Assembly (NCBI GenBank): GCA_951813535.1
Contig: OX638345.1
Coordinates: 137,029 to 201,028, forward strand
Origin: an uncultured Dehalococcoidia bacterium
GTDB lineage: Bacteria; Chloroflexota; Dehalococcoidia; Lucifugimonadales; UBA3495
Direction of reading: 5' to 3'
Length of the DNA: 64,000 nt
In this document: piece by piece, positions 538 through 52,211 of the stretch
Position numbering within the stretch: the stretch's first letter is position 1
How the letters are laid out: each line of letters starts with the position of its first letter
Notes under the pieces: model-generated
What the model was told of the DNA's origin: nothing
The model's database searches: none
Seen by the model: only the letters and a program-made list of their open reading frames with translations
Position numbers and translations under genes: made by a program

Positions 538-704
538 CTCATGCGTACCCAGTTTGGCGGCGGGAAACGTCAGAATCACGATTTTCCAATTTTGGGGATT
601 ATCGGGATTGGAACCGTCGTGTGAGGGACATCTCCCAATCCTGCCAAATCATAAAATCCCGTAAATCTTGATTCTGACGATTTACCAAACTGGGTACGCG
701 TGAG
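538..704. repeat. MITE-like inverted-repeat element, copy A
   Basis: The element has 20-bp terminal inverted repeats with one mismatch: 538-557 reads CTCATGCGTACCCAGTTTGG and 685-704 is its reverse complement with C for T. Inside lies a second dyad, GTCAGAATCA near 568 facing TGATTCTGAC near 670, followed by GGGATT/AATCCC-type repeats. The whole could fold into one long hairpin. It fills the divergent gap between the partial gene and the CoA transferase. Copies at 5831, 33640 and 52056 match in layout and length. Confidence 0.85.
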
Positions 705-4779: not shown

Positions 4780-5811
4780 TCACAGGTCCACGATCAGCAC
4801 CCACATCGGCTCCCGCCCGATGTCATACACCTCCAGCGGCTCCAGTTCCCCGCTGTCCTGGTTCACCCGGTAGGACGCCAGCCGTCCCGTCTCCAGGCCC
4901 GACGCGTACAGGTAGTTGCCCGTGGTGTCCAGGCTGAAGGCCCGGGGCACCGCCTCGGTGGACACTCTGCCTATGGCGGTCAGGCTGCCGTCCGTGCCGT
5001 CCACGGCAAATCCGGCCACGCTGTTGTGTCCCCGGTTGGGCGCATACAGGAACCGGCCCGACGGCGTGATCTGGATCTGCGAGCAGGTGTTCCGCTCCGT
5101 GAAACCCTCCGGCAGCGTCGGCACCGTCTGGAAGGGCGACAGCGTGCCCGCGTCGGCGTCGAAACGGTAGGCGGTGACGCTGCACCCCTGCTCGTTGGAC
5201 GAGTACACCACGTCCAAGTTGGGGTTGAAGCAGATGTGCCGCGGCCCCTCGGGCGAGGTGGGGTGTGCCCGGTCCGGCGTGTTGGGGGTCAGCCGGCCCG
5301 TCGACTCGTCGAACCGGAACTGGAAGATGGCGTTGGGCCCGGTCTGCGACCCTTCGGCGATGTGCGGCACGAAGGCGTAGCGGTTGGACGCGTCGGTCTG
5401 CACGTAGTGCGCGCCGATGCCCGTCTCCCGCCACTCGATGGGCGTCGGTTCCAGCCGTCCGCCGTCGTCAAAGCCGTGCACGCCCACCCGCGACTGGTAG
5501 TAGTAGGCCGACAGCAGGTAGTTACCGGTGCGGTCGACAAAGAGATGCACCGGATTGCCGTCCAGGTCGATGTCGCTGATCCGCTCCAGTTTCCCGCTGC
5601 CGCCGTCGATGCTGTACGACGTCAGCCCGAACTCGCCCGGCCGGCGCCGCCCCACGAACAGGTAGCGCTTCTCGGGATCCGTCGCCATGGGCGCCGGCAT
5701 CCCCGCCAGCGCAAACTCGGTCCGCCCCGTCAACCCGCCCGTGGCCGGATCCAAATCGTACCGGGCGATGACGTCGTCCCCCTGCAGCGATACGTACAGA
5801 TAGGTAGCCAT
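4780..5811 (-). CDS. Lactonase family beta-propeller protein (6-phosphogluconolactonase-like)
   Basis: A 343-residue protein of the seven-bladed beta-propeller lactonase family (YbhE/Pgl type). Repeated blades each contain a D-x-TG or Y-x-S/A pattern: YLYVSLQGDDVIARYDLDPATG, RYLFVGRR, RTGNYLLSAYYYQSRVGVHGF, DVVYSSNEQG, GRFLYAPNRGHNSVAGFAVD and GNYLYASGLETGRLASY. Family members hydrolyse 6-phosphogluconolactone or other sugar lactones; the substrate is not proven here. The start at 5811 is favoured by GGAGGTG eight bases upstream; an ATG at 5838 would lie inside the flanking repeat. Before the insertion of the 161-bp repeat at 5831-5991 it probably lay 13 bp behind the flavoprotein gene in one operon. 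Confidence 0.85.
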   Translation of the reverse strand: MATYLYVSLQGDDVIARYDLDPATGGLTGRTEFALAGMPAPMATDPEKRYLFVGRRRPGEFGLTSYSIDGGSGKLERISDIDLDGNPVHLFVDRTGNYLLSAYYYQSRVGVHGFDDGGRLEPTPIEWRETGIGAHYVQTDASNRYAFVPHIAEGSQTGPNAIFQFRFDESTGRLTPNTPDRAHPTSPEGPRHICFNPNLDVVYSSNEQGCSVTAYRFDADAGTLSPFQTVPTLPEGFTERNTCSQIQITPSGRFLYAPNRGHNSVAGFAVDGTDGSLTAIGRVSTEAVPRAFSLDTTGNYLYASGLETGRLASYRVNQDSGELEPLEVYDIGREPMWVLIVDL

Positions 5812-5830
5812 GTCGACACCTCCGCTATTC

Positions 5831-5991
5831 TCATGCATGCCTGCTTTGGCAAGTCGTCAGAATCAGGATTTTCAAGATTTGGGGATTATCAGGATTGAAA
5901 CCGTTCCGTGATGGAAATCTTCCAATCCTGACAAATCATAAAATCCCGTAAATCCTGCTTCTGTCGATTTACGAAAGTGGACATGCCTGAA
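5831..5991. mobile_element. MITE-like element, copy B, with 11-bp target-site duplication
   Basis: 161 bp with imperfect terminal inverted repeats (left CATGCATGCCTGCTTT, right arm reversed CAGGCATGTCCACTTT) and the inner GTCAGAATCAGGATTTT / AAATCCTGCTTCTG dyad shared by the family. It is flanked by perfect direct repeats CTCCGCTATTC at 5820-5830 and 5992-6002. On the minus strand that repeat contains the TAG stop of the upstream gene and the GGAG of the next ribosome site. Removing the element and one repeat copy restores a 13-bp stop-to-ATG spacing. Confidence 0.85.
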
Positions 5992-5996
5992 CTCCG

Positions 5997-7175
5997 CTAT
6001 TCCATCACCCGCGCATCGGGCAGCCCCAGCAGGAACTGCCCGTGGTTCTCGTAGGCCGCGTCGCTCACCATCTGGTGCTGGGCCGCCGCGTTGATGTCCC
6101 GCAGGCACTGCTGCAGGATGTTGGGCGTGAACAGCGCCTCGCCGCCGCCGTAGCGGAAGGCTTGAGCCGTGACGTCCGCGGCCACGTCGGTGGTGTAGGT
6201 GGCGCAGCTGCGCATCTGCGCCTGCAGCGGCGCTGGCGGCGTGTGACCCGCACAGACCGATCGCCAAGCCTCTTCCAGGATCTCCACGTTCAGCGATCGC
6301 GCCGCCCGCAATCGCAGGTCGCACTCGCCCAGCGCGCGCTGGAACGTCGCCCGGTTCGCCAGTAGGTTCACCGAGTTGTACCCACGGGTCTTGGACGCCG
6401 CCGCCTCGGTCACCGCGTCCAGCGCCCGCCGCGCCACACCCAGCGCGAAGGCCGAGTGCTCGTTGGTCACAAATGCCGGCCGGCCCAGCCGGTACAGCGC
6501 GCCGCCCCGGAGTGGTTCCGTCAGCGTCGAGTCCCAGGCAAACCCGTGTGGCACGAACAGGTCGTCCACCGAGAAGTCGCAGCTTCCCGTGCCCCGCAGC
6601 CCCATTACCTGCCAGTTGTCGTGCACCTTCACCTTGTGCCTGGGCATGGCCATCCGGATCTGCCGCGGATGGCTGGCCGGTTCGTCCGCAACCACACGAG
6701 CGCCGGCAGAGACCCATTCGGCGTGCACGATCCCGCTGCCGAATCGCCAGTGTCCGGTGACCCGGTATCCGCCGTCCACCGGTGTCGCGGTGGCGGAAGG
6801 CGCGGCTGCGCCGGCGACCTTGGGCGGCTTGCCGCCGACGAATATCTCCTCGATGGAGTCGTCGGGAAGGAACGCGCCCAGGCTGCCCAGGCTCGCCGCC
6901 CCGATCATCAGGCACCAGCCCGAGGCCGGATCGATGCGGCTCACCGCTTCCAGCACGTCCAGCTGCGTCACCACGTCGGCCTCGGCGCCGCCCAGCGCGT
7001 GGGGCGTCTTCAGCCGCAGCAACCCCGATTCGTACAGCGCGTCCACCGACGCCGGCGCCAGCGTGCCAATTCGCTCCGACTCCTCCGCCCCCGCCTCCAG
7101 CGTGGCCCGCACACTCTCCACCGCGTCCATCAAGACACGATGCTTCTGCTTGCGGTCGTAGGGAAATCCTTTCAT
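5997..7175 (-). CDS. Acyl-CoA-dehydrogenase-like flavoprotein, probably a monooxygenase (HpaB/DszC-like)
   Basis: A 392-residue protein with the acyl-CoA dehydrogenase fold. The N-terminal helical domain is followed near residues 120-220 by the beta domain (YRVTGHWRFGSGIVHAEWVSAGA, VMGLRGTGSCDFSVDDLFVP), then by a type-2 C-terminal helical domain (AFRYGGGEALFTPNILQQCLRDINAAAQHQMV). That C-terminal domain is typical of flavin-dependent monooxygenases and not of true acyl-CoA dehydrogenases, and the normal catalytic Glu segment is not evident. ATG 7175 gives a natural N-terminus; the longer upstream frame overlaps the LLM gene. It follows the LLM oxidoreductase by 13 bp, so they are co-transcribed. 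The substrate is unknown. Confidence 0.85.
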   Translation of the reverse strand: MKGFPYDRKQKHRVLMDAVESVRATLEAGAEESERIGTLAPASVDALYESGLLRLKTPHALGGAEADVVTQLDVLEAVSRIDPASGWCLMIGAASLGSLGAFLPDDSIEEIFVGGKPPKVAGAAAPSATATPVDGGYRVTGHWRFGSGIVHAEWVSAGARVVADEPASHPRQIRMAMPRHKVKVHDNWQVMGLRGTGSCDFSVDDLFVPHGFAWDSTLTEPLRGGALYRLGRPAFVTNEHSAFALGVARRALDAVTEAAASKTRGYNSVNLLANRATFQRALGECDLRLRAARSLNVEILEEAWRSVCAGHTPPAPLQAQMRSCATYTTDVAADVTAQAFRYGGGEALFTPNILQQCLRDINAAAQHQMVSDAAYENHGQFLLGLPDARVME

Positions 7176-11290: not shown

Positions 11291-11348
11291 AATGGCGATT
11301 GGGTGGCGCGAAGGTTATCGCAGCGATTTTCAATAGGCCTGGGGCCTT

Positions 11349-11474
11349 ACGCGTACCCAGTTTTGTCATTGCGAGCGAAGCGTGGCAATCTCGTGATGTC
11401 AGCCGAGGTCTCTTGCAGCAACGAGATCGCCAGGTCGCTGCGCACCTCGCGGTGACAAACCGGGTACGCGTGAG
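11349..11474. repeat. MITE-like element, copy C: same ends, different core
   Basis: The ends are ACGCGTACCCAGTTT (11349-11363) and AAACCGGGTACGCGT (about 11457-11471), as in copies A and D. The core, however, is an inverted pair of TGTCATTGCGAGCGAAGCG and its partner ending CTCGCGGTGACA, with GGCAATCTCG facing CGAGATCGCC. The right end abuts the TAG stop of the leftward gene at 11475. Confidence 0.8.
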
Positions 11475-26698: not shown

Positions 26699-26822
26699 GG
26701 TCAGAATCGGGATTTGCCGGATTGAAGGATTGACAGGATTGACAGGATTGGGTGTTCTTCACCACAGGATGGCTCCAATCCCGTCAATCCCATAATCCTG
26801 AAAATCCTGATTCAGACAATCT
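26699..26822. repeat. Inverted-repeat relative of the MITE-like family, copy F
   Basis: The core GGTCAGAATCGGGATT (26699 on) faces AATCCTGATTCAGAC (ending near 26817), with ATTGACAGGATTGACAGGATT repeats in the left arm and AATCCCGTCAATCC in the right. The CGTACCC-type ends of the other copies are missing. It lies within the operon, between the DUF1800 and NHL genes, and may fold in the mRNA. Confidence 0.75.
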
Positions 26823-33639: not shown

Positions 33640-33809
33640 TTTCTCATGAGTACCCACTTTCGTAAATCGTCAGAATCAGGATTTTCAAGATTGGAGGATT
33701 ATCAGGATTCAGACCGTTCTGTGATGTAGATCTCCCAATCCTGCCAAATCATAGAATCCCGCAAATCCTGCTTCTGACGCTTCCCCGCCCCAGACCGGGT
33801 ACGCGTGAA
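33640..33809. mobile_element. MITE-like element, copy D
   Basis: The left end TTTCTCATGAGTACCCACTTT and the right end GACCGGGTACGCGTGAA are inverted partners; the inner GTCAGAATCAGGATTTTC (about 33669) faces AATCCTGCTTCTGAC (about 33763-33778). Size and order match copies A and B. The 7-bp repeat CGCTGGG flanks it (33633-33639 and 33810-33816), a possible target duplication. A GGTGGCAATCCCG scrap to the left belongs to the TCATTGCGAG family. Confidence 0.8.
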
Positions 33810-52055: not shown

Positions 52056-52211
52056 TCGTTTGCGCACCCGGTTTGCGACCGGAAGCTGTCAGAATCCAGA
52101 TTATCAGGATTTACGGATTTGCCGGATTGGAGCCGTCCGGCTGGCGCGCTCAACCCTGGAAATCCTGTAATCCGGCAAATCCAGATTCTGACGATCTCGG
52201 AAGCAGGTACG
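52056..52211. repeat. MITE-like element, copy E
   Basis: The left end TTTGCGCACCCGGTTTGCG and the right end CGGAAGCAGGTACG are degenerate inverted partners; the core CTGTCAGAATCCAGATT (about 52087) faces AATCCAGATTCTGACG (about 52178-52193), with GGATTTGCCGGATTGGAG and CTCAACCCTGGAAATCC-type arms between. The direct repeat TGTGAGGTCG flanks it (52046-52055 and 52212-52221), but part of that resembles the family end, so target duplication is uncertain here. Confidence 0.72.

Follow-up and report, generated by a model that had tools for sequence, protein, structure and literature searches.

A flavoprotein gene and a lactonase gene follow one another, in that order, on the minus strand of an uncultured Dehalococcoidia genome, within the 64,000-nucleotide stretch of DNA analysed here as a whole (the window). 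Between them lies a 162-bp near-palindrome, which raises the question of how such a structure entered the operon, why neither gene was broken, and what has become of it since. The element is almost certainly a MITE inserted between the two operon genes, and its point of entry, in a recent ancestor within the genus, would have been behind the flavoprotein stop codon and ahead of the lactonase Shine-Dalgarno sequence. Transposition into a compact operon, as a preliminary description of this DNA had proposed, is now borne out by a dispersed family with common ends and target-site duplications (TSDs), an intact insertion sequence with matching ends, an empty site and orthologous filled sites. The features of the locus are as follows.

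4780..5811, minus strand: 7-bladed beta-propeller lactonase, the downstream operon gene (PF10282, E 6e-67); ATG at 5811, Shine-Dalgarno GGAGG at 5823..5819
5820..5829, unstranded: TSD CTCCGCTATT on the lactonase side, which keeps the lactonase Shine-Dalgarno; present as a single copy in the empty site of genome G004
5830..5991, unstranded: MITE of 162 bp, non-coding and near-palindromic; ends from the genomic-family alignment; fold z -8.4
5830..5847, plus strand: left terminal inverted repeat CTCATGCATGCCTGCTTT, diverged from the consensus CTCAYGCGTACCCASTTT
5856..5965, plus strand: palindromic core GTCAGAATCAGGATT...AATCCTGCTTCTG, about 110 bp, delimited by a profile HMM of cores and by orthologue comparison
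5974..5991, minus strand: right terminal inverted repeat TTCAGGCATGTCCACTTT, read on the minus strand
5992..6001, unstranded: TSD CTCCGCTATT on the flavoprotein side, which keeps the flavoprotein stop codon
5997..7175, minus strand: acyl-CoA dehydrogenase/HsaA-type flavin-dependent monooxygenase, the upstream operon gene (PF08028), with its stop codon in the TSD

The element and its duplicated target

The 11-mer CTCCGCTATTC is found twice, at 5820-5830 and 5992-6002, bracketing the element. On the coding (minus) strand it includes the TAG that stops the flavoprotein (5999..5997) and the greater part of the GGAGG that serves the lactonase as Shine-Dalgarno (5823..5819), and excision of the element together with one target copy leaves a junction that reads TAG-13 bp-ATG; both the placement of the two signals in the repeat and the restored 13-bp spacer had been described correctly beforehand. 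The preliminary description had also given the duplication as 11 bp and the element as the 161 bp at 5831-5991. The direct repeat and the element are real, but both boundaries shift by one base, because the terminal repeat of the family starts CTCAYGCG, which assigns base 5830 to the element (5830-5991, 162 bp) and leaves the 10-mer CTCCGCTATT as the TSD; the 11th matching base of the flanking repeat is a coincidence.

MITEs are short (below about 600 bp), non-coding and bounded by terminal inverted repeats, as is this element of 162 bp with the ends TCATGCATGCC / TCAGGCATGTC. Likewise, the TSD length is near-constant, being 10 bp at the operon copy and 9 or 10 bp throughout the family. The ends of the operon copy have drifted, with 5 and 6 mismatches of 18 against the consensus, which may have left it unable to move.

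The MITE family and its likely driver

Searching the element's own genome (G000; one contig, 4.378 Mb) with the element gave 40 scored places of 104 candidates, at an identity of at least 82%, and the edges of the genomic copies read CTCAYGCGTACCCASTTT as the family ends. The end pattern CTCATGCGTACCCAGTTT, allowing up to 3 mismatches, had 129 matches, compared with 1 for a reversed control pattern. Pairing of ends yielded 63 elements, a list hand-kept from the end pairs in which copy counts, collected by search and from taken stretches, are lower bounds; most measure 162-169 bp, a second class 129-138 bp, and three 1181 bp. In this genome, 41 dispersed copies belonging to the 155-175 bp class were examined, and near relatives hold 58-136 first-look MITE candidates. 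Besides the operon copy, the window contains two full copies of the same family and one member of the second class.

538..704, plus strand: full copy of the family, 167 bp, with no recognisable TSD
11346..11474 (genome 148374-148502), plus strand: second MITE class, 129 bp, with the same IS4 ends around an unrelated palindromic core (GTCATTGCGAGCGAAGCG...)
33643..33809, plus strand: full copy of the family, 167 bp, TSD 8/10, with the core reversed relative to its own outer arms

A 10-bp duplication (at least 8 of 10 matches) accompanies 25 of the 63 end-paired elements and a 9-bp one (at least 7 of 9) 8 of them, while none of the 63 showed a duplication of 8, 11 or 12 bp at n-2 matches. When flanks were shuffled between elements, only about 0.1-0.2 elements (range 0.01-0.4) passed these thresholds. 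The family with its 9-10 bp TSDs is established independently of the operon copy, and the proposed check for further copies with short direct repeats accordingly returned many. At genome 426978-427145 there is a tandem arrangement, in which the left flank repeats the right end of another copy along with the same 10-bp duplication.

Three insertion sequences, at genome 1903100-1904280, 3358610-3359790 and 3378135-3379315, are identical over all 1181 bases, have the same ends as the MITE, and are flanked by the duplications CATATTGACG, ATCCTCACG and CCCGCAACC (9-10 bp); they provide the autonomous partner that had been sought as a transposase gene with matching ends. Each encodes an intact 360-aa transposase, which scores 157.2 bits against NF033591 (NCBIfam IS4 family; cut-off 152) and 46.7 bits against PF01609 (Pfam DDE_Tnp_1), and which carries the IS4 signature Y-x2-R-x3-E-x6-K (the YREK motif) in YRKRMQPEQYFRDGK. 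IS4-family target duplications span 8-13 bp, so that DDE domain, motif and TSD length all agree with this family. The MITE and the insertion sequence have about 18 terminal bp in common, whereas their inner sequence is not shared. Judged by ends and duplication length, the transposase of the 1181-bp element is likely the mover of the MITEs. Related transposases occur in Dehalococcoidia and SAR202 assemblies. The genome as a whole is transposase-rich: its 4.4 Mb yield 77 matches to DDE_Tnp_1, some of them from a 468-aa group with about ten near-identical members.

Empty and filled sites in relatives

The operon junction was located in congeners through their lactonase orthologues. In G004 (lactonase identity 91%) the site is empty and reads GAATAACGGAGGTGTAAACATG, that is, a stop codon TAA, 13 bp and the ATG, with one copy of the 10-mer, just as had been predicted for the uninterrupted operon, and projection of the two flanks onto it gives an overlap of exactly 10 bp. 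The more distant G009 (lactonase identity 84%) is empty as well, with a spacer of 12 bp. Since G004 carries the MITE family in numbers elsewhere, its empty site does not come from want of elements. The element occupies the same operon site in G001, G012 and G013, and in G001 one of its arms has been replaced by a second repeat, of the TCATTGCGAG type. Furthermore, the MITE copy at genome 242822 has an exact empty site in G001. In the flavoprotein gene tree the four filled genomes are joined (support 0.95) with G004 outside, whereas the rpoB tree pairs the empty G004 with the filled G012 (0.986); this conflict implies either exchange of the locus between species or precise loss of the element in G004.

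Effect on the operon

The flavoprotein has an acyl-CoA dehydrogenase fold, its best model being HsaA with a score below the cut-off of that model. Neither gene is broken, because the 10-bp duplication copied both signals, so that one copy ends the flavoprotein and the other starts the lactonase. The element is predicted to form a single extended hairpin, at -76 kcal/mol and z -8.4 for RNA, which folds as DNA too, and the lactonase ribosome site stays outside the main hairpin. Searches inside the element for a terminator-like or promoter-like site found none. The retained Shine-Dalgarno, the kept stop codon and the lack of such sites suggest, as the simplest reading, that the operon insertion was near-neutral; alternatively, the element may affect mRNA stability or, as the preliminary description had suggested, the coupling of lactonase expression to the upstream genes.

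A stronger version of the latter, which makes the hairpin an adaptive structured RNA or attenuator, kept by selection because it uncouples the lactonase from the upstream genes, seems to us quite improbable. The great predicted stability of the mRNA-strand fold and the persistence of the element in four species would speak in its favour, but an Rfam search of the element gave no match, a terminator-like tail is missing, the same gene pair does without the element in G004 and G009, and dozens of copies stand in other genomic contexts.

Inversion of the palindromic core

At the operon site, the core in G012 and G013 runs opposite to that in G000 and G001. Compared with the G012 element, the operon element is 65.4% identical as it stands, 77.0% if only the core is flipped, and 66.5% if the whole element is flipped. 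Orthologous sites in five genomes were gathered by flanking homology and a profile HMM of the core. Among the 20 sites at which outer arms or flanks share one orientation, the core of about 110 bp was flipped at 9 and unflipped at 11, as template switching would have it (an inverted spacer between outer flanks that keep their orientation). Of the nine flips, that of window 33643-33809 against G012 agrees weakly at its junctions and might instead reflect independent insertions, and genome 4230200 versus G013, which looks like a whole-element reversal, was left out of the count. Examples are genome 320579 versus G001, in which the left arm is nearly identical and the core reversed, and genome 340471 versus G012. 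A third example, window 26700-26817 compared with G013 and G004, has no transposon ends, and its flanks remain conserved as far as the core.

Two types of outer arm can be distinguished, with a 13-nt or an 8-nt spacer between end and core, as can the two sides of the core. Across the orthologous sites, outer arms kept their orientation in about 20 cases and swapped in about 2. Among full copies in the own genome, arms and core are in one phase in 21, and in 7 the core is reversed relative to the arms; four full copies have two short-type arms, including the operon copy, the arms of which are only partly alike. On the flavoprotein side (right), the outer arms of G000 and G012 belong to different types, and at the 79804 site G012 shows partial arm-to-arm copying. 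For the MITE family, in-place inversion of the core is well supported; at the operon site, one of the two filled lineages (G000 and G001 versus G012 and G013) probably had its core turned around once the element was there.

The opposite cores could also be explained if members of this MITE family had inserted twice, independently and in opposite orientation, into one and the same 10-bp target, once in G000/G001 and once in G012/G013, with no inversion at the site. This history, which we consider unlikely, would fit the finding that the orthologous elements (87-89% over the core) are no closer than same-genome paralogues (up to 93%), as well as the different type of flavoprotein-side arm in G000 and G012. 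Yet the duplication is identically placed, and the duplications share no strong target consensus; flipping the whole element matches poorly where flipping the core alone matches well, and independent insertion would not give outer arms that so predominantly keep their orientation. As for the cause of in-place inversion, the core might be a programmed invertible segment, turned at the inverted repeats CGTCAGAAKCAGGATT by a dedicated site-specific recombinase and regulating the neighbouring gene. Flipping is indeed frequent and bounded by a conserved inverted repeat, but the hairpin is nearly identical in either orientation, no promoter-like site was found in the element, and the partial copying between arms at the 79804 site is not a recombinase product, all of which renders this possibility highly improbable. 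Recombination between the arms is an alternative mechanism.

On balance, the best candidate for the cause of inversion is template switching between the arms of the hairpin, which we hold slightly more probable than not. At inverted repeats it is reported to make arms alike and to invert spacers, as a recurrent and reversible process (PMC8604942, yeast; PMC8794818, rRNA genes). The flipped cores are one sign of it here, and the mosaic arms may be the other, although the two arms of the G000 operon copy are only partly alike. Because flips occur without IS4 ends, the transposase is not needed for them. Instead, a DNA polymerase would switch template between the hairpin arms during replication, thereby turning the core. 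A single switch that copied the core and one outer arm backwards could convert the G012 arrangement (short-arm ... long-arm) into that of G000, the product being short-arm ... short-arm, about 5 bp shorter, with the core reversed.

Other palindromes in and around the window

The second MITE class has about 12 further copies, and its GTCATTGCGAGCGAAGCG repeat translates as SLRAKRGNL. At window 26700-26817 a core lies between two genes and lacks transposon ends. Its orthologous region has the AATCCTG core in G000, G004 and G013, the TCATTGCGAG palindrome in G001 and G010, and remnants of the latter in G007 and G009, while G012 has a third palindrome; one intergenic place is hence taken by different palindromes depending on the species. 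A further core-like palindrome, with no recognisable IS4 ends, is located at window 52088-52195. In G025, G035, G045 and G057, from other genera and families of the order, there are many core-only matches, as short alignments at about query 26-67. By this distribution, the AATCCTG palindrome seems to predate the IS4-ended MITE and to be more widespread. Furthermore, a search of the own genome for the Y1 (RAYT) transposase PF01797 gave no match, control genomes being positive, and an REP/RAYT origin of the palindromes was rejected on the grounds that this genome is without any Y1 transposase.

Significance and comparison with known systems

With an empty site, filled sites, a duplication, a family and a likely driver, this is a complete case in an uncultured Chloroflexota lineage. 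It also illustrates how an insertion can be accommodated in a compact operon, since the sequence that is duplicated contains the stop codon as well as the ribosome site. The core inversions, if confirmed, would allow hairpin-templated mutation in bacteria to be measured at scale and would supply a natural reason why dispersed palindromes stay palindromic without RNA selection; covariation in such repeats would then be no proof of RNA function. In our literature search, the letters of the core repeat appeared in no paper, and none linked SAR202 to these MITEs.

With the IS4 family (NCBIfam NF033591, transpos_IS4_2) the driver shares a DDE transposase with YREK, ends beginning CT, and TSDs of 9-10 bp in this genome, the assignment resting on NCBIfam and Pfam models; no named insertion sequence with its ends was identified. 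The palindromes resemble REP/ERIC/RPE-type repeats in being dispersed and in many cases free of transposon ends (e.g. window 26700-26817), but here the Y1 (REP-associated) transposase is lacking, and palindromes are also enclosed in IS4 ends. The closest parallel to the operon insertion is Chunjie, a MITE of Geobacter uraniireducens (Chen et al. 2008), which a review (PMC10969869) summarises as 178-235 bp long, in tens of copies, with direct repeats, and which, according to the title of the original paper as cited there, sits in an operon and leaves its structure undisturbed. As far as that summary goes, both are non-coding inverted-repeat elements of similar size, in tens of copies, with a harmless operon insertion; they differ in sequence and host, and in the likely driver insertion sequence, the congener empty site and the in-place core inversion described here. 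The less ordinary features of the present case are the likely driver together with an empty site in an uncultured lineage, two unrelated cores within the same ends, and frequent core inversion. The last of these recalls template-switch inversion (PMC8604942, PMC8794818), in which a spacer is likewise turned in place and arms are made alike, recurrently and reversibly. In those cases, however, spacers are of few bases, being 2-5 bp substitutions in yeast coding genes (PMC8604942) and mostly loops of 4-8 nt in rRNA genes (PMC8794818), whereas here about 110 bp are turned and nearly half of the compared orthologous sites differ. We think it reasonably probable that in this genus of Dehalococcoidia palindromes of about 110 bp, whether inside or outside IS4-type ends, invert so often that their orientation is near-randomised between species at about 10% divergence, on a scale far above the few-base loop inversions of PMC8604942 and PMC8794818, and that the IS4 ends, found around two unrelated palindromes, serve as a general vehicle.
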